The translations under genes were made by a program, and so were the position numbers. From NCBI RefSeq assembly GCF_000702445.1, contig NZ_JNIF01000003.1, forward strand, positions 620,001 to 684,000: 64,000 bases of DNA. Direction: 5' to 3'. Numbering within the stretch: position 1 is the first letter of the stretch; each line of letters starts with the position of its first letter. Source of the DNA: Bryobacter aggregatus MPL3. GTDB taxonomy: Bacteria; Acidobacteriota; Terriglobia; Bryobacterales; Bryobacteraceae. Of this stretch, positions 5,305 to 20,096 are shown piece after piece. The notes beneath the pieces are model-generated. The model saw only the letters and a list, made by a program, of their open reading frames with translations, ran no database searches and was not told the DNA's origin.

Positions 5305-8300
5305 CTACCAGAGTAATTTCAACGCCAACTGCCCAATGCGGGCATCGCGCGCGGTGCGAATCTGACCGATCAAGGCGCTGTTCGCATTCAGATCGGGTTG
5401 GCCGAACTGTGCGTGGTTCAGCGCATTGAAGGCCTCGGCACGGAACTGCAAGTTGATCCGCTCAGAGAGCTTCGTATCCTTCAGCAACGAGATGTCGAGG
5501 TTGTTCGTCCCCGGAATCTCGACAATGTTGCGCCCGGAGTTCCCAAAGGTGCCGAGCGGTGTGGTCGAAAAGCAACTCGTGTTGAAGTAGCGATCGATGG
5601 TCCGGCTCGAGCGATCGAGATTGCCCGCGCAGGAAGTATTCGCCCGCTGGAAAGCATAACCACCAACATTCGCGCGGTCCCCGGCCACCGTCACCGAGAA
5701 GTAATTTCCCGTGTTGAAGCTGGCGATCGAAGCCACGGACCAGCCACTGACAACGCGCTCCGTCAAGCCGCTGGCATTGGACAGGAACTGACGTCCCTTG
5801 CCAAAGGGCAAGTTATAGATGCCACTCAGCGCCAGGCGATGGCGCATATCGAAATCGGAGTTGCCACGATCGCCACGCACGTTATAGGCACTCTGGTGCC
5901 ACGATCCGCCAGACCCGCGCGAAGCGGTATCAATCGAGTGTGACCAGGTGTAGGACCCGAGGAAGCTGAAGCCACTGGCAAAGCGGCGTTCGATGCGGCT
6001 CTGCAGTGCGTTGTAGCTCGAGTTCTCCTGGAAATTTGCCGACAGAATGTCGCCAAAGCCGGCATAAGGACGGCGATCGTTGATCGGCGTGATGTTCGCA
6101 GGATCGGCAGGCAGCCGGGCCTGATTGATGTTCACGCGTTCAGCGAGCTTGGTGCCCTTGCTGCCGACATAAGCGGCTTCAAACAGCCAGTCCTTCGCCA
6201 GTTGCTGATTGATGCTGAGATTCCATTGCTGGATGTAAGGCGTGCGATCACTGGGATCGATGGCGAAGGGAGCAAGCGCACCCACCGGGAAATTCGCGGA
6301 CGCAGGATCAGGAAACGCATCGCGATCCCAGCTCAGATTCGGCGTGCCCACATTGCCCGTCATCGCAGCGGCAAAGATCAGCGGCGGCGCATTGATCTTG
6401 AACTGCAGTTCGTTGCCCTGAGTCTTCGAGTAGAAGAAGCCGTAACCGCCGCGAATCGCCGTCCGGTCCGTCAATCGGTAGCCAAAGCCAAGGCGGGGAG
6501 CAAAGTTGTTGCGATCGGGAGTCCAGATGCCCGGACGGAGATTCGGGTTGTAGACCACACCCGGAATATCACGTGCAATCGGCGACTGCGCCTTCGAGAT
6601 CCCCACCACAAACTGGCCCTTCGAGGTATCGAAGTAGCCTTCACGGCCATCTTTTTCGACAAAGGGCTGATCGTATTCGTAGCGCAGGCCCAAGTTCAGC
6701 GTCAGACGCGAAGTGATCTTGTAATCATCGGCGATAAACAGATTGATCGAGTTCGAGCGGAAGCGTCCCACTCCCAGTCCCAACTGCGCATTCATGGCCG
6801 AAGGATTGCCGAGCAAAAAGTCTGAAACCGGATTGCCCGTATAGCGGCCATCAAAGGTGAAGGCGCCGTTGTTACTGAGGCCCAGACGCAAATCAAAGTG
6901 GATCAGGCGCAAGTCGCCGCCAAACTTCAGGTTGTGACGCCCACGGGTGAGGTTCACCGTATCACTGAACTGGAACAGGTTGTCATGGCCACCCTGATTG
7001 ATCGTCGCGCCACCGCCGGCATAGAAGCCGCTGGCGAGCGAAACATTCGGCAAGCCATACTCTTCCGGTACCTGCTTCAGGTTGATGCCGATCTGATTGG
7101 CGATGCTGTTTGAGCTACCCTCCCAACGGTTATAAACGTCCGCCTTGGTATAGCCGAACTTGAACACGTTCAACACGGTCGGCGAAAAGATATGCGTGTG
7201 CTGGACAACGAGATTGCGGCCCGCATAGGGAAACACGCTGCCCGACAGGGCGCCGGTCCCAGGACGGATCAGCGACGAGTCGTAGTCCGTGTAGCGGCCA
7301 AAGATCGTGTCGCGTTCTCCAAGCTGGTAGTCGATGCGGCCCCCGTACTGGTTGTCATCGCGATTCGTACTCTTGGTCGTGACAAAGTTTCGTCCGCCTG
7401 CATTCGCGTTCGCCACCGGCGTGTACTTCGAGAAGGCGCGCGTCACAGCAGAAATGCGGCTCGCCGGAATCTGGTTGTTCGGGAACGGCACTCCGCTCAA
7501 AGGATCGAGGATCGCGCCTTTGGTCGACACCAGACCGCTCAGATCGCCATTCAGTTGGTTCTGCGTCGGCACCAGGGCGGTCAGCGTATTGCTCCGGCGG
7601 CTGCGCAGCCCTTCCCAGCTTCCAAAGAAGAACAACTTGTTCGGCAGGATCGCGCCACCGGCCGTCGCGCCAAACTGATTCTGCCGGAACGGAGCCTTCC
7701 CGTTGCCAAAGTAGTTGTCGAAGTAATTCGCCGCATCGAGCTTATCGTTGCGCAAGAACTCATACGCCGACCCATGCAATTCATTGCCGCCCGAGCGGCT
7801 CACCAGGCTCACCAGACCACTGCCCTGCCCGTATTCCGCCGAGAACAGGTTGCGATCGATCTTGAACTCCTGCACTGCATCGACACTCAACACAACACTC
7901 GGCGAATTGAACCAGGTGCTGCGCGTCTCAACACCATCGATCAGAAAGCTGTTGCTGTCGCCACGGCCACCCGAGACGTGAACCGCCAGATCGGAGCGGC
8001 CCGACTGGTTGGTAATCGTCGCGCTGCGGCTGTTATAGGCAGGGGCGACACCGGGCGACATCGTCGCCAGTTGCAAGAAGTTGCGGCCGTTCAGCGGCAG
8101 GCCGACCACGCTCTTCTGATCCACCACCTGCCCGATCGAAGAGGTTTCGCTCGCCACCAGGCTCGCGCTTCCCGTCACTTCGATCGATTCACTCACTTCG
8201 CCAATCTGAAGGCGAATGTCGAGGCGGGCAGTCTGGTCTACCTGGAGCTGCAGGCCGCTTGAAACAAACTGTTTGAAACCGGCAGCCGAAGCCGTCACGC

Positions 8301-8550
8301 GAAAGCTCCCCGGCGGCAATTGCGGAATGGTGTAAAGACCAGAAGCATCGCTGGTCGTTTGGCGGGCGATTCCAGTACTCTCACTGGTCGCAAGAATTTT
8401 GACGTCGGAAACAGCGGTTCCGGAGGCGTCTACAACGCGTCCGGTCAGGTTGGAAGAAACAATCTGCGCACTGCCCGCAGGCAAAGTAGCAAGGAATAAA
8501 AATAGACCCAGGGACCCGCGAAACCGGGTTCGCGGCGAAAAGTACATCAT
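5305..8550 (-). CDS. TonB-dependent receptor with carboxypeptidase-regulatory-like N-domain (Oar-like)
   Basis: About 1081 residues. A signal peptide ends near PAGSAQ. Next comes a Cna-B/carboxypeptidase regulatory-like beta-sandwich (TGRVVDASGTAVSDVKI ... TIPQLPPGSFRVTASAAGF), then a plug with LPLNGRNFLQLATMSPGV, then a long outer-membrane barrel (GGRGDSNSFLIDGVETR, DNLFQFSDTVNL). This architecture is typical of the large receptor families of Acidobacteriota. A TTG at 8559 is in frame, but the paired ATGs at 8550/8547 are preferred because a TATAAA box sits at 8561-8566 and would put transcription start downstream of the TTG. The sulfatase follows 6 bases later. Ligand unknown; the context suggests a glycan. 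Confidence 0.92.
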   Translation of the reverse strand: MMYFSPRTRFRGSLGLFLFLATLPAGSAQIVSSNLTGRVVDASGTAVSDVKILATSESTGIARQTTSDASGLYTIPQLPPGSFRVTASAAGFKQFVSSGLQLQVDQTARLDIRLQIGEVSESIEVTGSASLVASETSSIGQVVDQKSVVGLPLNGRNFLQLATMSPGVAPAYNSRSATITNQSGRSDLAVHVSGGRGDSNSFLIDGVETRSTWFNSPSVVLSVDAVQEFKIDRNLFSAEYGQGSGLVSLVSRSGGNELHGSAYEFLRNDKLDAANYFDNYFGNGKAPFRQNQFGATAGGAILPNKLFFFGSWEGLRSRRSNTLTALVPTQNQLNGDLSGLVSTKGAILDPLSGVPFPNNQIPASRISAVTRAFSKYTPVANANAGGRNFVTTKSTNRDDNQYGGRIDYQLGERDTIFGRYTDYDSSLIRPGTGALSGSVFPYAGRNLVVQHTHIFSPTVLNVFKFGYTKADVYNRWEGSSNSIANQIGINLKQVPEEYGLPNVSLASGFYAGGGATINQGGHDNLFQFSDTVNLTRGRHNLKFGGDLRLIHFDLRLGLSNNGAFTFDGRYTGNPVSDFLLGNPSAMNAQLGLGVGRFRSNSINLFIADDYKITSRLTLNLGLRYEYDQPFVEKDGREGYFDTSKGQFVVGISKAQSPIARDIPGVVYNPNLRPGIWTPDRNNFAPRLGFGYRLTDRTAIRGGYGFFYSKTQGNELQFKINAPPLIFAAAMTGNVGTPNLSWDRDAFPDPASANFPVGALAPFAIDPSDRTPYIQQWNLSINQQLAKDWLFEAAYVGSKGTKLAERVNINQARLPADPANITPINDRRPYAGFGDILSANFQENSSYNALQSRIERRFASGFSFLGSYTWSHSIDTASRGSGGSWHQSAYNVRGDRGNSDFDMRHRLALSGIYNLPFGKGRQFLSNASGLTERVVSGWSVASIASFNTGNYFSVTVAGDRANVGGYAFQRANTSCAGNLDRSSRTIDRYFNTSCFSTTPLGTFGNSGRNIVEIPGTNNLDISLLKDTKLSERINLQFRAEAFNALNHAQFGQPDLNANSALIGQIRTARDARIGQLALKLLW

Positions 8551-8560
8551 GTCGATCAAT

Positions 8561-12215: not shown

Positions 12216-12310
12216 CCAACCGACCACGAAACGCTACTATGTGTTTCCGGAGTCTCCCAATTCGTAACACTGACCTGACAATCCGGGTCCACAATGAGAA
12301 GAACGAACGT

Positions 12311-12913
12311 ATGTTTTCCAAAATATTACAGATTGCAATCCTCAGCAGCATCGCACTCCAGGCCGCAAGTCTCGAACGGGGACGCCAACTCCTCGAAGAA
12401 CGAAACTACAAGGCAGCCGAGGCCGAGCTACGCTCGGTCGTACAGGCGGAGCCGGACAACGCGGAAGCAAATCGCGCCCTGGGAATCGCGCTCTCCCACC
12501 TTGGCAAAAATGACGAAGCCATCAACCGCTTGAAGCATGCGGTCCAGATCAACGGCGACAGTGGCGCTGCTCGCATTGCGCTTGCTTCCGCACAAATCGA
12601 AGCACGGCAAACGAATGAAGCCGAAGCCTCCATCAACGAAGCGGCCAATAAGTCCGCTGACCCGGCCGATCTCGCTTATGCCCGCGGGGCGCTGCTCGCC
12701 TCGCAGAAGAAATTTAAGGAAGCCATCCCGCCGCTCGAGGAGTCGCTACGCGCCAATAACGACAACGCGATGGCCCACTATTACCTCGGCCTCGCATACA
12801 GTAATCAAAAGCGGCCCGACAAGATGATCACTCACTTCAATGAGTTCCTACGCCTTGAGCCTGACAATCCGAACGCTGCCAAAGTCCGTTCTTTCTTGAA
12901 ATCAGCTCGATAA
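12311..12913 (+). CDS. exported TPR-repeat protein preceding the TamB-Omp85 fusion
   Basis: 200 residues: a signal peptide (MFSKILQIAILSSIALQA) followed by about five tetratricopeptide repeats (for example YKAAEAELRSVVQAEPDNAE and MAHYYLGLAYSNQKRPDKMI). It is probably a periplasmic protein-interaction module. The reading frame is open to 12239, but the ATG at 12311 gives a clean signal peptide and has GAGAAG about 11 bases upstream. It ends 12 bases before the giant fusion gene, whose ribosome-binding site overlaps its stop, so the two are co-transcribed. An assembly-assistant role like that of BamD or CpoB is inference from position only. Confidence 0.85.
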   Translation: MFSKILQIAILSSIALQAASLERGRQLLEERNYKAAEAELRSVVQAEPDNAEANRALGIALSHLGKNDEAINRLKHAVQINGDSGAARIALASAQIEARQTNEAEASINEAANKSADPADLAYARGALLASQKKFKEAIPPLEESLRANNDNAMAHYYLGLAYSNQKRPDKMITHFNEFLRLEPDNPNAAKVRSFLKSAR

Positions 12914-12925
12914 GGATTCCACCAT

Positions 12926-15900
12926 TTGAAACTTCGGTATTTCCGCATCGCGGCGCTCTCCCTGGGGGGATTCATCATCGCGGGAATCGCGGTGTTGCAC
13001 ACTCCCCCCGTCAAGCGTTTCGCTCTCGCTGAGTTGCAACGGGTCCTCGCCAAGCAAGGCATCACCTTCCATGCAACAGGCTTCGACTACAATCTGCTGA
13101 GTCTCCGTGCGCGGCTGAGGGAAGTCGTGGTCACCCCCAAGGCCGACATGCCGCCCTTGCTCAAGCTCGCAGCGATCGATCTCGACGCCTCGCTCCTCGA
13201 TTTGATTCGCGGCAAAATTGTCGTCCAGAATGCAGCGCTCACCAAGCCCGAAATCTACCTGCTCATCGATACCAGCGGCCACTCCAATCTGCCGGTGCTA
13301 TCGAGCGAAGGAAGCTCGTCCTCGTCCCCCTCGATCCTCATCGAGTACTTGAGCATTCGCGAAGCCTCCTTCCGCTACGAAGACCGCCGGGCTGGAACCA
13401 AGCTCTTCATCCCCCAATGGCAGATGAACGTCGATGGCCACCGCCTCACGAACCGGCATACCATCTCGGCCCAGAATCTCTCGCCTGTCGATCTCACCTA
13501 TGGCGGCCAGGCCTATCAGATCGATCGCCTCCAAACCACCCTCGACCTCGGCGCAAAAGACGTGAAAATCCTGGGTCTGAATCTCGACGCCCTGGGCGCC
13601 ACGTTGCGCGCCTCCGGCAGCATCGAAAACTTCAACGCACCCACGCTCCATCTGCAGGCCGATGCAGACGCAAAGCTCGACCGCTTCGCCGCCCTCCTCA
13701 AGACTCGCGTCGCAGGCGAAGCGCGGGTACAAGTCCAGGCCATGGGCCCCATCGATCAGATCGCCGTCACCGGCCAACTCAGCGGCAAGAATCTGGCCTA
13801 CCAGCAGTACAAAGACTTCAACCTCAACTCGGGCTTCTCTTACGACGGCACTACGAAGATTGCCGGCATCCGCGCGCTTCGCCTCGCCTCTCCCTTTGGC
13901 AACCTCAGCGCCGATGGCAAGCTTGCCACCGAGAAGGGCCAGAGCAGTCTCAACGCGAAGCTCGATAGCATCCGGCTCGACACCCTCTCGCGGCTCGCCA
14001 AGTCCCCCATCACCCTTGCCAGCCGCGCCACGGGCGCCATCACCGCACAGTGGCCCGGCTTATCCTTCGAGCGCTCCACCACCACCGCGCAGTTCCACCT
14101 TCACCCCACGCAAGCGCCCGCCAAGAATACGCTCCCGGTCGCAGGCACTCTCGACGCCCGCCTGCGGGACGGCAATGGCGCCATCCAACTCCAGAACATC
14201 GATGCTCTGGGCACCGCCCTCGAGGGTCAGATCCAGCTCCACCAGCAACAGCTCAGCGGCAGTATCGAGATCAGCGCCCAGAATCTCTCGCAGTCTGCTG
14301 CCGCAGCAGCCACAATCTTTGCATCGAAGCTCCCGCCCATCGCAGGCCAGGCCGAAGCGAAGATCACTCTCGCCGGAACGCTGTCCAGGCCCGAAGCCCA
14401 GCTCCAGCTCGAAGCGGCTCCCGTCACCGTCGGCACTCTCGCAATCGAAGGCGCCGCGCTCGATGCCAATTACACCGCGGACCGCGTTGAGATCGTCTCT
14501 TCCTCTGTCCGCTGGAAAGGCCAGTCCCTCAATGCCACCGGCACCATCGGCCTCGACCGCGCGGCAAAACTCAACCTCAAGCTCCACCTCGACGAAGCTT
14601 CGATCTCCGACCTGCTGACTGGCATCGAACACCGCGACATCCCTGCCAGCGGCCGCATCCAGCTCGACGCCAGCATCACCGGCACCACCAAAAAGCCGGA
14701 AGCCCAAGCCCATCTCCGCGGAAAGGATCTCGTCGCCTATTCGCAACCCTTCGGAGCCCTCACCGCAGACCTCACCCTCTCCCCCGCACAACTCTTTGAA
14801 GCCCAAATCGCTCTCGCAAAAGCTCCCAGCGAAACCCTGAACGCGCAGCTCAGTTACGATCTCGATTCCGATGCAATCCGTGCGGACATCCAGTCCACAC
14901 CGCTCCAGCTCACCACGCTCGACATCCCCCAGTTCGGCCGCGTCACCGGCGCAATCTCACTCAACGCAAAAAGCACCGGCAGCAGCAAAGATCCTCACAT
15001 CGAAGCCAGTCTCGACACCCGCAACCTGATCGCCGCCAACAACAAAATCGGCGCCCTCAGCACAAGCTTCCAATACGCGGCAAACGACCTCGCCGCCACC
15101 CTCTCCGCGCCGCTCCAGCACCTCAACGTCCAAGGCCACATCGCCACCCAGGAGCCCTACGCCTTCCAGGCGCAGGCCAAGGCACAGGACACCGATCTCA
15201 ACAGCCTGCCCCTACCGGCCGATTTCCCTGCCACCGGACAGTTCTCCTTTGCGCTCTCCGCCAAAGGCAACGCATCGGATCTGCGCTCGATCGACGCCAC
15301 ATTGCTCGCCTCGCGCCTCGACCTCCGCGTCAAGGACCAACCCATCTCGCTCGATTCCCCACTGGACGCCCGGCTGGCTGGCAACCTCGTCACCATCCAC
15401 TCGGCGGCGCTCCGGGCTCCCGGAGCGACACTGCGGCTGGAAGGTTCCATCCCGGTCGATACAACCACCGGCATCAGTTCACTCCATGTCGATGCAAGAG
15501 CAGACCTCGCCGAGCTCTCGAAACTCCTCCACGTGACAGCCTCCGGCACCGCCTCCATCCAAGGCCTCATCACCGGCAACCTCCAGGCGATTGATCCAAA
15601 GCTCGAAGTGAAGCTCGACCAAGTCAACTACGAACAGCTCACCAACGCAAACCTCCTGGCCACGGCCGCGAACGGCGTCTTCAAGATCCAGTCCCTCAAC
15701 GCAACCGCGCTCAGCGCCGCCATCACGGGCTCAGGTGATATCCCCTTTGCCCTGCTGCCGCCCGAAGTCCCACTCGTCCGCAGCACCGCCATCGCTCCCG
15801 CCGCGCTTGAGCTCTCCGTCAGGAATCTCGATCTATCCAAGCTCCCAAACGTACCGGAAGAACTCAAGGGCAGAGTCTCGGCCACACTCGATGCCAGCGC

Positions 15901-18900
15901 CACCCGCGCGAGCCTCGACGCTGTAGAAGCCCGCCTCACCGTCAACACCTTCAACGTCGATTACAACCAGGTCCACATCGAGCAGGACGGCCTCTCCTCC
16001 ATCCGCTATGCCAACGGCGTCGCCACCGTCGAAAAGCTCGCCATCAAAGGCCCGCAAACCCAACTCGCCCTCACCGGTTCGGCCAGCGAGAAACGCATCG
16101 ACGCAAAGCTCAGCGGCAGCACCGACATCTCGCTGCTCACGCTCTTCTCCTCAGACCTGCGCTCGCGCGGCGCCTCCAGCATCGAGATCACCGCAACAGG
16201 CACACCGGCCAATCCCCAAGTCTCCGGCTTCTTCGAATTGAAAGACGGCGAGATCGCATTCCCCTCTCCCCGTATCGCCGCCGAAAATCTCAACGCCCGC
16301 CTCGACCTCACCAACAACCAACTCGTCGTCTCCTCGCTCAAAGGCGACTTGAACGGCGGCACGCTCAGCGGCGGAGGCGCTCTCGGCTGGACCAACGGCC
16401 AGCTCAGCGGCGAAGGCCTCACCCTCTCCACCCGCAACGTCTATCTCGATTTCCCCGCTGACCTCAAGACCGTCTCCAATCTCGATCTCAAACTGGCCCC
16501 CGTGCGCGACCGTACCCTCGTCTCCGGCAAGGTCAGCATCAGCGAGGGCTCCTACACAGACACCCTGAATCTCGAAGGCGGCATCTTCAACGTCGTCAAT
16601 CGCACGCCCGAGCTCGACCTCACCAACGAACGGAGTGCCTTCCTCTCCAAGCTCGACTACAACATCGGCGTCAAGACCGTTGAGCCCATCGTCATCGATA
16701 ACAACCTCGCCAAGGTCGAGATGGAAGTCGACGCCCGCGTTGTTGGCAATTACTATAGCCCCGGCCTCACTGGCCGTCTGCAACTGGGCGAAGGCGGCGA
16801 GCTCTATCTGAACGAGCGCAAGTACCTCGTCGATCGCGGCATCATCACCTTCGTCAACGAGCAGCGCATTGAGCCGGTCTTTGATCTCTCCGCCAAGACC
16901 AGCGCCGCCGGCTACGACATCACCCTCGGCGTGCAAGGCAGCGAGCGCGAGCGCACCACCACCCTCACCTCAGATCCACCTCTCGGCGAACCCGACATCG
17001 CCTCGGTCCTCCTCACCGGCCGCACCCTCGACCGTCTCCAGGGCGACGAGACCAGCATCGCCAAGGAGCAGGTTCTCTCTTACCTCACCGGCCGCGTCGG
17101 CAACTCACTCGGGCAGGAACTCCAGCGGGCCACCGGCCTCTCGCAGGTGCGCATCGAACCGGGCCTCATCGCCAACGAATCCGATCCCAGCGCCCGCCTC
17201 ACCCTCGGCCAGAATCTCACCCGCCAGTTGAGCCTCGTCTATTCGATGAACCTCATCAACAGCGGCGACCAGCTCATCGTCGGGCAGTACGATTTCGACA
17301 AACGCTTCCGCACCCGGGCCCTCAAGCAGAGCGACAACAGCTACCGCTTCGACTTCAGCCGCACCCAGGAGTTCGGTGGCATCGCCCCCCCGCCCAGAAC
17401 CAGCTCTGAGCGCGAAAAGCGCACCATTGGCAAAGTCGGTCTCGATCACGACAGCCTCTTCACCGACGAACAGATCCGCAAATGGTTAAACGCCCGCGAA
17501 GGCAAGCGCTACGACTTCTTCAAAATCCGCAAAGGCCTCGACAAGATCGAAAAGAAGTATGCCGGCGAAGGCCTGCTTGAATCCCGCGTTCGTCTCAAGC
17601 GCACCATGCACGATCACATCGTCGATGTCGATGTCGAGATCACGCCCGGCCCCAAAGTCGATTTCATCTACGAAGGCTACAGCCCTTCCCGCAGCATCAA
17701 AAACAAAATCCGCGACCTCTGGCAGTCCGGCGTTTTTGACATCCAGCGAACCGCCGAGGCGAGCGAGCAAATCCGCAAGGATCTGCTGAACGATCGTTAC
17801 GTCGAAGCCAGTGTCGATGTCTCCGTCGACAGCTCCGACCCGGACCACAAGCGCGTCACCTTCGATGTCCAGAAGGGAACCCGCTTTGATTCCTACAAAA
17901 TCGTCTTTGCCGGCGCCACCAAGATTGAAGAGCACGAGCTCCGCCGCATCATCAAGGAGCAAAAGCTCGAGAACGACGCGATCACCGCACCCAAGCACAT
18001 CATCGAGCTCGTCACCCGTTATTACCAGGAGCAAGGCTATCTCGATGCCAAGCTCGCCAAGCCCGAGCTCATTCTCAAGGACCGCACCGCGCAATCCGTC
18101 TTCCCCGTATCGGAGGGCCCGCTCTATCAGGTCCAGCACCTTGATTTCGAAGGCAATCAGGTCTACACCAAAGACGAACTTAAAAAGGTCTCCATTCTTG
18201 AGGAAGGCCATCTGTACAGCCCGGAGTTCCGCCAGCTCACCACAGACAATCTACGCGGCCTCTACGGCAGAAAAGGCTACAACGACGCCGAAATCGGCTA
18301 CCAGTTGGAACGGCTCCCGCAGCAACCGGGCCAGCTCCGCGTGCTCTTCCACATCGCGGAAGGCAAGCAGACCATCGTCAACCGCATCCAAGTCACCGGC
18401 AACGACGAAACCAGCCGCAACTTTGTCCGCAAGCAGATTCTCCTCAAGCGTGGCGAGCCGCTCAACATGCAGGCGCTCACCGATTCGCGCCGCAACCTAT
18501 ACAAGACCGGCGCCTTCTCGCTTGTTGACATTGACCGCGCCCCGCTCTCTGGCAGCGCCAACCAGCAGCTCGTCAACCTCAATATCAACGTCCGCGAACT
18601 GCGCCCCTTCCTGCTCAGCTACGGTGGCTACTACGATACAGAACGCGGCCCAGGCGGCATCGTCGACATCGCCAACCGCAACAGCCTCGGCATGGCCCGT
18701 GTCGTCGGCATGCGCGTCCGCTACGATAGCGATCTGCAGGAAGGCCGTCTCTATTTCTCACAGCCCTTCCTCCGTCAGTTCCCGCTCCGCACCACCGTCT
18801 CCAGCTATCTGCGCCGCGAAATTCATGAGGATTTTAAGACCGATCGCATTGGCTTTTCCGTCCAGCAGGAAGCGCGCTTCCGCAAGGTCTGGGTCTTCAA

Positions 18901-19639
18901 CTACGGCTATCGCATGGAGAACACGCACACCTACGAGAGCGGCCCTGATCCTCTCTTCGACACCCGTCTCCGTGTCGCGCCCTTCACCTCTTCGCTCAGC
19001 CGCGACACCCGTGACGACGTTCTCGACGCCACCAAGGGCCAGTTCACCTCCCACGCCGTCGACTTCGCACCCACCTGGTCCGGCAGCCAGTTGAACTTCG
19101 TAAAGTACTTCGGCCAATACTTCAAGTACATCTCCCTCGACAAACCCAAGCCCACCCCCATGCAGAACGGCGCAAAGAAATCCCGCCTGGTCTTTGCCAC
19201 CGGCATCCGCATTGGTCTGGCCACCGGACTCAATGGGCAGGATCTCATCGTCGGCCGCAGTTCCACCGGGCAAGTCGGCCTCGGAGAACGCTTCTTCGCC
19301 GGAGGGGGAACGACCGTCCGCGGCTTCGCGCAGGACGGCATTGGACCCAGACTCTTTGATGGCGTCTCGCCCGCCGGTGGCGATGCCATGATCATTCTGA
19401 ATAACGAAATCCGTTCGCCGCTCTATAAGATCTTCGACGGCGTCGCCTTCGTCGACATGGGCAACTTATACGATCAGGCCTCAGACTTCCGGCCCTGGCA
19501 ATTGCGCAAGGCCGCCGGTCTCGGCATCCGCATCCGCACGCCGTACTTCCTGCTCCGTTTCGATTACGGCATCAAGCTCGACCGCCGCCCCGGCGAACCA
19601 CTGGGCCGCCCCTTCTTCAGCATCGGCCAGGCCTTCTAG
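12926..19639 (+). CDS. TamB-Omp85 fusion: envelope-spanning translocation/assembly protein with five POTRA domains
   Basis: One uninterrupted 2237-residue frame. Residues 6-24 form an uncleaved-looking inner-membrane anchor. About 25-1190 are repetitive AsmA/TamB-like beta-structure rich in short Ala/Leu/Ser/Asp repeats. About 1190-1480 form the conserved TamB C-terminal domain (LTGRLQLGEGGELYLNERKY, LTSDPPLGEPDIASVLLTGR). A Pro/charged linker (about 1483-1500) leads to five POTRA-sized units (about 1500-1890), then a 16-strand Omp85 barrel (about 1890-2237) with the lock motif VRGF near 2130 and a terminal Phe. TamA normally has three POTRAs and is a separate protein; five is the BamA number. 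TTG start at 12926, with AAGGA at 12912-12916. The predicted chain runs from inner to outer membrane and should insert or fold outer-membrane proteins or move lipid. Confidence 0.93.
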   Translation: MKLRYFRIAALSLGGFIIAGIAVLHTPPVKRFALAELQRVLAKQGITFHATGFDYNLLSLRARLREVVVTPKADMPPLLKLAAIDLDASLLDLIRGKIVVQNAALTKPEIYLLIDTSGHSNLPVLSSEGSSSSSPSILIEYLSIREASFRYEDRRAGTKLFIPQWQMNVDGHRLTNRHTISAQNLSPVDLTYGGQAYQIDRLQTTLDLGAKDVKILGLNLDALGATLRASGSIENFNAPTLHLQADADAKLDRFAALLKTRVAGEARVQVQAMGPIDQIAVTGQLSGKNLAYQQYKDFNLNSGFSYDGTTKIAGIRALRLASPFGNLSADGKLATEKGQSSLNAKLDSIRLDTLSRLAKSPITLASRATGAITAQWPGLSFERSTTTAQFHLHPTQAPAKNTLPVAGTLDARLRDGNGAIQLQNIDALGTALEGQIQLHQQQLSGSIEISAQNLSQSAAAAATIFASKLPPIAGQAEAKITLAGTLSRPEAQLQLEAAPVTVGTLAIEGAALDANYTADRVEIVSSSVRWKGQSLNATGTIGLDRAAKLNLKLHLDEASISDLLTGIEHRDIPASGRIQLDASITGTTKKPEAQAHLRGKDLVAYSQPFGALTADLTLSPAQLFEAQIALAKAPSETLNAQLSYDLDSDAIRADIQSTPLQLTTLDIPQFGRVTGAISLNAKSTGSSKDPHIEASLDTRNLIAANNKIGALSTSFQYAANDLAATLSAPLQHLNVQGHIATQEPYAFQAQAKAQDTDLNSLPLPADFPATGQFSFALSAKGNASDLRSIDATLLASRLDLRVKDQPISLDSPLDARLAGNLVTIHSAALRAPGATLRLEGSIPVDTTTGISSLHVDARADLAELSKLLHVTASGTASIQGLITGNLQAIDPKLEVKLDQVNYEQLTNANLLATAANGVFKIQSLNATALSAAITGSGDIPFALLPPEVPLVRSTAIAPAALELSVRNLDLSKLPNVPEELKGRVSATLDASATRASLDAVEARLTVNTFNVDYNQVHIEQDGLSSIRYANGVATVEKLAIKGPQTQLALTGSASEKRIDAKLSGSTDISLLTLFSSDLRSRGASSIEITATGTPANPQVSGFFELKDGEIAFPSPRIAAENLNARLDLTNNQLVVSSLKGDLNGGTLSGGGALGWTNGQLSGEGLTLSTRNVYLDFPADLKTVSNLDLKLAPVRDRTLVSGKVSISEGSYTDTLNLEGGIFNVVNRTPELDLTNERSAFLSKLDYNIGVKTVEPIVIDNNLAKVEMEVDARVVGNYYSPGLTGRLQLGEGGELYLNERKYLVDRGIITFVNEQRIEPVFDLSAKTSAAGYDITLGVQGSERERTTTLTSDPPLGEPDIASVLLTGRTLDRLQGDETSIAKEQVLSYLTGRVGNSLGQELQRATGLSQVRIEPGLIANESDPSARLTLGQNLTRQLSLVYSMNLINSGDQLIVGQYDFDKRFRTRALKQSDNSYRFDFSRTQEFGGIAPPPRTSSEREKRTIGKVGLDHDSLFTDEQIRKWLNAREGKRYDFFKIRKGLDKIEKKYAGEGLLESRVRLKRTMHDHIVDVDVEITPGPKVDFIYEGYSPSRSIKNKIRDLWQSGVFDIQRTAEASEQIRKDLLNDRYVEASVDVSVDSSDPDHKRVTFDVQKGTRFDSYKIVFAGATKIEEHELRRIIKEQKLENDAITAPKHIIELVTRYYQEQGYLDAKLAKPELILKDRTAQSVFPVSEGPLYQVQHLDFEGNQVYTKDELKKVSILEEGHLYSPEFRQLTTDNLRGLYGRKGYNDAEIGYQLERLPQQPGQLRVLFHIAEGKQTIVNRIQVTGNDETSRNFVRKQILLKRGEPLNMQALTDSRRNLYKTGAFSLVDIDRAPLSGSANQQLVNLNINVRELRPFLLSYGGYYDTERGPGGIVDIANRNSLGMARVVGMRVRYDSDLQEGRLYFSQPFLRQFPLRTTVSSYLRREIHEDFKTDRIGFSVQQEARFRKVWVFNYGYRMENTHTYESGPDPLFDTRLRVAPFTSSLSRDTRDDVLDATKGQFTSHAVDFAPTWSGSQLNFVKYFGQYFKYISLDKPKPTPMQNGAKKSRLVFATGIRIGLATGLNGQDLIVGRSSTGQVGLGERFFAGGGTTVRGFAQDGIGPRLFDGVSPAGGDAMIILNNEIRSPLYKIFDGVAFVDMGNLYDQASDFRPWQLRKAAGLGIRIRTPYFLLRFDYGIKLDRRPGEPLGRPFFSIGQAF

Positions 19640-19678: not shown

Positions 19679-20096
19679 ATGTTGATCAGCGTCATCATCC
19701 CCGCGTTCAATGAGGAGTCCTATCTTCCGGCAACCTGATCCTGCCTTGGCGATGCCATCTCTGTTTGTAGTTGCACAGTGGAGCTGATCGTTGTCGACAA
19801 TGCGAGCGCTGATCGCACCAGGGAGGTCGCCCTCTCCTTCGGAGCAACTGTCATCCACGAGGCCGTTCACCACATTGCAAGGGTTCGAAACGCCGGAGCA
19901 AGCGCTGCGCATGGCGATGTGTTGGCCTTCGTTGACGCCGCGTTTTCTGGATGATGTCAAGGTGGTCCCCTCGCCCCGCCGTTTCGACCTCACCCCCACA
20001 TGGCGCACATTGATCTGGACGAATCCCGTGTTCATTGCGCTGTTCCGAAAGAGACATTCGACCTGGACAGCCTGGTACGTCAAAACTCCGCGTTAG
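19679..20096 (+). pseudogene. glycosyltransferase family 2 remnant (nonsense codon plus internal deletion)
   Basis: ATG at 19679 begins a textbook GT2 N-terminus (LISVIIPAFNEESYLPAT), which hits an in-frame TGA at 19736-19738. The same frame then continues with VELIVVDNASADRTREVALS, ARVRNAGASAAHGDVLAFVDA and stops at about 19954. The usual middle of the enzyme (roughly 90-110 residues, including the acceptor-site helices) is missing. A different frame resumes with RFLDDVKVVPSPRRFD and the family's C-terminal LIWTNPVFIALFRKR, ending at 20096. So at least a stop codon and an out-of-frame deletion have destroyed it. This fills the only stretch of more than 300 bases here without an intact gene (19640-20096). 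Confidence 0.85.

Follow-up and report, generated by a model that had tools for sequence, protein, structure and literature searches.

Introduction

What is a protein that carries TamB and an Omp85 barrel in one uninterrupted chain, how did it arise, and what would it do in the cell? These questions are raised by a gene in the 64,000-nucleotide stretch of the Bryobacter aggregatus MPL3 genome analyzed here (contig NZ_JNIF01000003.1, positions 620,001 to 684,000; hereafter the window, in which coordinates are counted unless another locus is named). They bear on the route by which phospholipids reach the outer membrane, and on how TamB delivers past the POTRA domains, a long-standing question. 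TamB binds phospholipid and docks on its Omp85 protein through the POTRAs and barrel (PMC12800296), and the AsmA-like proteins, which are redundant, have been implicated in phospholipid transport (PMC8593681, PMC8912898). The biochemical role of TamB itself is debated, lipid transport being set against the assembly of outer membrane proteins (OMPs). A TamB-Omp85 chain joined covalently in nature has a fixed stoichiometry, polarity and contact point, such that this coupling becomes directly testable: it offers one protein and one gene in place of a labile trans-envelope complex, with a linker that can be lengthened or cut.

Architecture of the fusion protein

The fusion is encoded at 12926..19639 by an open frame of 2237 codons (2237 aa), which, like every feature described below for this gene and its upstream neighbor, lies on the + strand. 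Its start codon is TTG, 9 nt 3' of a Shine-Dalgarno-like AAGGA read from the sequence (12912..12916); the homologous start is ATG in the closest relatives (L110 and L111). GC3 of the gene is 0.79. Searches against Pfam identified TamB (DUF490) at residues 1139-1470 (16340..17335; 1.8e-20, 74 bits against a curated cut-off of 22.4), POTRA in five stretches (6e-37) and Omp85 at residues 1919-2237 (1e-37). The chain was modeled with AlphaFold2 in two parts, residues 1-1110 (32-row alignment, pLDDT 86.5) and residues 1060-2237 (45 rows, pLDDT 78.9, pTM 0.70); the alignment spanning the joint between the two halves comprised 45 rows including the window's own protein.

The TamB half opens with a membrane helix (residues 2-24; 12929..12997), modeled as such and occupied by a hydrophobic segment in aligned relatives, which we presume to be an uncleaved inner membrane anchor; the helix is a prediction of the model and its topology in the cell is inferred. 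A second modeled helix (residues 27-43; 13004..13054) takes the place of the chorein-N-like start of TamB, AsmA and VPS13 grooves, and is followed by a predicted TamB beta-taco groove (residues ~46-1350; 13061..16975) whose strands present one hydrophobic and one polar face. About 65 strands are modeled within residues 1-1110, and the alternation of hydrophobic and polar residues in strands of the TamB part is well above that of shuffled sequence (2.71 vs 1.48 +/- 0.13), as a lipid groove would lead one to expect. In structural comparisons (VIA), residues 31-225 matched the Vps13 N-terminal fragment 6cbc (Z 9.2, rmsd 5.3, 180 aligned) and the N-terminal half matched LPD-3 (Z 9.0) and TamB (Z 8.7); however, mixed beta proteins were among the Foldseek and VIA matches to this half and unrelated beta-barrels score alike, so that the fold matches provide weak support for a bridge fold and no proof of it. 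A profile of the TamB part also matched the solved E. coli TamB structure 9xdc_B (8.5e-14). The C-terminal domain (residues 1355-1483; 16988..17374) is modeled as helices (1355-1403) and six strands (1407-1483) ending at Phe1483, a make-up that matches E. coli TamB in the TamAB cryo-EM structures (PMC12800296). It is the least confident part of the model (pLDDT ~32-71 by blocks of ten); in an alignment it matches the C-terminal ends of free TamBs (n=15) and retains their final Phe, although in the fusion it is internal. With the family domain, an anchor preceding a beta-taco and a six-strand C-domain, the half is predicted to meet the tests for the TamB family (PF04357, AsmA superfamily).

The Omp85 half begins with five POTRA domains: POTRA1 (residues 1501-1573; 17426..17644), with a strand-helix-helix-strand-strand order, POTRA2 (1577-1649; 17654..17872) and POTRA3 (1656-1729; 17891..18112), each from AlphaFold2, and POTRA4 (1735-1811; 18128..18358) and POTRA5 (1815-1891; 18368..18598), each from Pfam and AlphaFold2. 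These lead into a barrel of 16 strands (residues 1895-2237; 18608..19636; Pfam, AlphaFold2) with a VRGF motif, whose RGF is invariant in the 45-row alignment, and the C-terminal sequence ...FSIGQAF. With POTRAs and a 16-strand barrel bearing RGF, membership of the Omp85 superfamily is met as far as the model predicts. In VIA alignments, model residues 440-1178, from POTRA1 to the end, align with residues 24-810 of E. coli BamA, whereas for TamA crystal structures the alignment starts only near model residue 595, at approximately POTRA3.

Assignment of this half within the superfamily was resolved by profile scores and phylogeny. The best NCBIfam match is BamA (TIGR03303, 285.5 bits, just under the cut-off of 297.15), and the TamA profile NF047950 reaches 77.5 bits against a cut-off of 625. 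In an Omp85 tree the fusions group with the genome's own BamA2 and with L010 and L033 (SH-aLRT 96), separate from a clade of canonical BamAs comprising the genome's own BamA and that of E. coli. A TamA identity was rejected on the five POTRAs and the score far below cut-off, and a canonical BamA identity on the sub-threshold TIGR03303 score and the different clade. The tree, built, like the TamB tree below, by a quick method, shows the Omp85 half to belong to the clade of the acidobacterial second BamA (BamA2). This second BamA has previously been placed with TamA and paired with TamB, the pair being proposed as the origin of TamA (Heinz 2015; PMC4494059).

An initial reading of the locus, made from sequence alone, had claimed an unbroken frame of 2237 residues running from an inner membrane anchor through about 1450 TamB-like residues into five POTRAs, the number of BamA and not the three of TamA, and an Omp85 barrel with VRGF and a terminal Phe. 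Each of these claims held: the frame is open and is kept across the joint by relatives, the POTRA count is supported by Pfam and AlphaFold2, and the complete TamB is predicted to comprise residues 1-1483. One refinement concerns the barrel half, which is not TamA and groups with BamA2. The linker interval that it gave, 17.37-17.43 kb, was almost exact, and where it held that a stop or frameshift would refute the fusion, relatives display the same frame spanning the joint.

Composition and constraint of the joint

The last residue of TamB is Phe1483 (nt 17372-17374), which is homologous to the Phe that closes free TamB; free acidobacterial TamBs (n=15) terminate in a strand such as ...DVKLRKRF followed by a stop, and the equivalent strand of the fusion ends ...RFDFSRTQEF. 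Between this residue and POTRA1, alignment with free TamBs delimits a linker of 17 residues (GGIAPPPRTSSEREKRT; residues 1484-1500; 17375..17425). Across 78 aligned rows linker length ranges from 12 to 34 (median 17, mostly 15-20); the linker varies in sequence and abounds in Arg, Gly, Ala, Pro and Ser. Phe is the final residue of TamB in 55 of 82 rows. Most unfused Omp85 partners start with a signal-peptide-like segment (judged by eye); the Omp85 half of the fusion has none. The position of the joint at the natural end of TamB, together with loss of the partner's signal peptide, indicates that the fusion contains TamB in full and, of its Omp85 partner, the mature part.

Comparison of the close relatives L110 and L111 shows that the joint is under purifying selection and that dN/dS is well below 1 throughout the chain, linker included: every 150-codon block has a dN/dS of at most 0.11 and the linker one of 0.13. 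The most constrained stretch is residues 1400-1482, with zero amino acid changes (pN 0.00, pS 0.39), which indicates that the old C-terminal strand of TamB is still strongly selected though it no longer forms a C-terminus.

A linker of ~17 residues is inferred to span at most ~6 nm when fully stretched. In one state of the TamAB complex seen by cryo-EM, the C-terminal strands of TamB lie inside the TamA barrel and are zipped onto it (PMC12800296). Given the reach of the linker, a hybrid barrel of the E. coli type would need the POTRA arm to fold back; otherwise handover would differ from that of E. coli. The proposal that the fusion joins exactly the two ends in contact elsewhere, the TamB C-terminus and POTRA1, has consequently held only in part, with the linker constraining the barrel-zipped state (PMC12800296).

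Distribution across the Acidobacteriota

Matches spanning the joint were found in ~60 of 297 sampled Acidobacteriota genomes, representing ~24 of 79 families (our tally), mostly as one frame of ~2000-2450 residues, and the joint remains in frame in relatives with as little as ~28% identity. The same N-to-C order that the initial reading had proposed to look for in acidobacterial genomes is therefore present, and what appeared to be an isolated oddity is better described as an old and widespread acidobacterial protein family. It includes, among 45 named loci, a protein of 2095 residues from an isolate with a complete sequence, Terriglobus roseus DSM 18391, in which the membrane helix, joint and barrel are all present. 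On the basis of these relatives and of selection, the fusion is real and is neither a chance frame nor an assembly error. At L094 4097-12433 (genome G109), an open frame of 2779 residues has several hundred residues before TamB that appear low-complexity and charged, and its true start is doubtful.

Beyond this sample, a motif-based scan of one genome per species across 84,980 species, with a motif drawn from a 7-row alignment and of limited sensitivity, returned 49 loci. Their titles name Acidobacteria or its orders or genera, with the exception of one Cyanobacteria and one Aminicenantes. The apparent restriction to the Acidobacteriota depends on this one scan. The locus titled Cyanobacteria bacterium (L126) is a metagenome bin carrying a fusion of acidobacterial type, and the record title is probably wrong.

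Among 119 nearly complete genomes, ~30 possess the fusion; it is the sole TamB found in 18 of them, and the other 12 also have a separate TamB (our tally). In the fusion-only genomes G109 and G032 just two Omp85 proteins were found in each. Within the Bryobacter family the fusion occurs in ~14 of 101 genomes, is absent from both sampled congeners, and nearly all of these genomes have a separate TamB match. The window genome also possesses separate bamA (next to Skp), bamA2 and tamB genes, which answers a second check set by the initial reading; their presence, together with congeners lacking the fusion, identifies the fusion as an accessory, extra module in this genome. The fusion may therefore be the sole translocation and assembly module (TAM) in some lineages, and is a patchily inherited accessory in its own family, where such patchiness suggests that it is dispensable and may have a specialized substrate. 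The separate genes bamA2 and tamB of this genome flank a SurA-like PPIase gene in one operon (L008 9230-16841; C3:2827229-2834840), with omp85 first, the reverse of the order in the fusion.

Evolutionary origin

Both large fusion clades of the Omp85 tree recur in the TamB tree, indicating that the two halves have travelled together. Two further groups of fusions nest among separate TamBs, one formed by L104-L106 and the other by L103 with L181 and L208 of genome G009. Approximately unbiased (AU) tests rejected a single clade for all fusions (p 9.9e-5), and with it a single origin, and did not reject the main family as one clade (p 0.51). At least three changes between fused and separate states are forced by the TamB tree, a count that cannot by itself separate gain from loss; the fusion is nevertheless likely to have arisen at least three times. 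At least 12 genomes carry an unfused tamB directly before omp85, in the same order as in the fusion, and this neighbor pair is its likely precursor. In some members of the smaller groups (L208 4279-11133 of G009; L103-L106), TamB and barrel lie further apart than in the main family.

A proposed one-chain TAM

On balance we favor, with moderate confidence, the interpretation that the fusion is a TAM in one chain, a phospholipid bridge of AsmA/TamB type that is covalently attached to its Omp85 end in the outer membrane; lipid flow, OMP insertion and the absence of cleavage are all inferred. In this model the N-terminal helix would stay in the inner membrane, the ~1350-residue hydrophobic groove of TamB/AsmA type would cross the periplasm, and the ~17-residue linker would tie the TamB C-domain to POTRA1 of a five-POTRA, BamA2-type Omp85. 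The canonical BAM machinery would insert the barrel in the outer membrane while the N-terminus remains in the inner membrane. Lipids would then be taken up by the groove at the inner membrane, move along it as far as the TamB C-domain and be released at the POTRA/barrel gate of that same chain, which would act mainly as a phospholipid conduit from inner to outer membrane, its mouth held permanently on its own barrel and lateral gate, with barrel-assisted OMP insertion as a second possible output. Covalent coupling would replace the docking equilibrium of TamB with TamA or BamA by a fixed 1:1 pair and would hold the terminal strand of TamB near POTRA1. The initial suggestion of a one-protein assembly or lipid-transfer bridge, running from inner membrane through periplasm to outer membrane, holds as far as sequence and models go, its function being inferred. 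Against the bridge stand the patchy occurrence in the Bryobacter family, the low model confidence of the TamB C-domain and the debate over the biochemical role of TamB. In addition, a linker of this length leaves the E. coli-type hybrid-barrel state difficult to attain without a folding back of POTRA1 onto the barrel.

A bolder reading, which we consider slightly less likely than not, is that a stable chain integral to both membranes constitutes a self-contained lipid conduit and outer membrane insertase. The TamB end would be locked near POTRA1, and the hybrid barrel would either form in cis, the POTRA arm being folded back, or be abolished, with lipid passed along the POTRAs. Such a machine would have evolved at least three times and be the only TAM of many lineages.

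Alternative explanations

The strongest alternative, to which we give less than half the weight of the one-chain bridge, is that the fusion is mainly an assembly machine for OMPs or secreted proteins, a TamA/BamA2-like insertase without a lipid path, in which the TamB part serves as a lever or scaffold positioning the POTRAs and lateral gate against the inner membrane or peptidoglycan. In its favor, the Omp85 half has all the parts of a BamA-type protein, TAM entered the literature as an assembly factor and catalyzes the in vitro assembly of OMPs (PMC11341756), a lever role has been suggested for the TamB C-domain, which binds POTRAs (PMC11361582), and the C-domain is more constrained than the groove. 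However, a groove of ~1350 residues with alternating hydrophobic and polar strands exceeds the needs of a mere lever, and the implication of AsmA-like proteins in phospholipid transport also speaks against it.

A second alternative is that the chain is a polyprotein, cut in the linker to release an ordinary TamB, with Phe1483 as its last residue, and an ordinary Omp85, which pair as they do elsewhere. The linker is of the composition and variability noted above, a cut at its start would restore the C-terminus native to TamB (in 55 of 82 rows a Phe, falling in the most constrained stretch), and an uncut linker of 17 residues obstructs the hybrid-barrel state. Nevertheless this appears unlikely, since no conserved cleavage motif was seen in the linker, there is no evidence for such a protease, and linker length is narrowly kept across the phylum.

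It is very unlikely that the fusion is the core of the cell's BAM complex, a canonical BamA bearing a TamB arm; its best NCBIfam match and its five POTRAs are those of BamA, but the genome has a separate canonical BamA adjoining Skp and the tree places canonical BamA elsewhere. Finally, although unfused tamB and omp85 neighbors in the same order exist in other acidobacteria and a missed stop is conceivable in a single genome, an artefact of assembly, sequencing or gene calling that merged two neighboring genes is all but excluded, and was rejected, given that dozens of independent genomes, the completely sequenced T. roseus among them, have an unbroken frame at the joint, that the Omp85 half has no signal peptide there, and that the linker is under purifying selection (dN/dS 0.13).

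Relationship to known systems

The TAM of Proteobacteria (TamA and TamB) resembles the fusion in having an inner membrane-anchored TamB groove with a C-domain and a POTRA-bearing Omp85 barrel, both halves being homologous, while in E. coli it consists of two proteins with a three-POTRA TamA rather than one chain with five POTRAs and an Omp85 of BamA2 type. The nearest unfused relatives of both halves are the acidobacterial BamA2-TamB pair (PMC4494059), which forms a separate operon in the window genome and is arranged as tamB-omp85 in other genomes. It differs in having separate genes and signal sequences, and the genome's own BamA2 has six Pfam POTRA stretches compared to five in the fusion. 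In spirochaetes (Borrelia BB0794/BB0795; PMC11361582, PMC8407342), TamB similarly partners a five-POTRA Omp85, in the gene order tamB then bamA as in the fusion, although as two proteins; there TamB binds POTRA2/3 of BamA (PMC11361582).

Veillonella MlaD (PMC10665443) is likewise one polypeptide with an inner membrane anchor and an outer membrane barrel, proposed as a lipid bridge, but it comprises an MCE hexameric tunnel and a small 10-strand barrel from unrelated families, with a proposed retrograde direction. It is the only other single chain for two membranes that we met in the open-access literature searched. VPS13, LPD-3/BLTP1 and YhdP share with the fusion an N-terminal helix followed by a long groove built of amphipathic strands, consistent with the weak structural matches to Vps13 and LPD-3; to our knowledge no bridge-like lipid-transfer protein of this kind carries POTRAs or an Omp85 barrel. 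No description of a TamB-Omp85 fusion was found in the open-access literature searched, consistent with the initial reading, which knew of no characterized example, and the main text of Heinz et al. (PMC4494059) does not mention one; database architecture lists may already hold such proteins.

The fusion provides independent confirmation that TamB and a BamA-type protein belong together and, as predicted by the models, suggests that one protein can anchor in both membranes at once. Terriglobus roseus DSM 18391 provides a cultured host in which it occurs.

Gene neighborhood

Directly upstream lies a gene for an exported TPR protein (12239..12913; an open frame listed as 224 aa, matching TPR families at best 5e-19) whose signal peptide, MFSKILQIAILSSIALQA, begins at codon 25 and whose TAA stop shares bases with the ribosome-binding site of the fusion. 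In 26 of 38 assessable relatives the TPR gene occupies the position just upstream, often with an overlap of a few bases, supporting the earlier assignment of the two genes to one operon. The periplasmic TPR protein, presumably co-expressed with the fusion, is likely to be an accessory scaffold or chaperone, a role that is inferred. Its position is kept in most loci of Bryobacterales type.

Elsewhere in the window, positions 5305-8559 encode a TonB-dependent-receptor/Oar-like outer membrane protein whose N-terminal domain, judged by eye, is carboxypeptidase-like; this protein may be an OMP client of the assembly machinery. Between positions 20000 and 31000, many antisense open frames of 300-800 aa lie opposite clear genes; these are probably a side effect of high third-position GC and are easily taken for genes.
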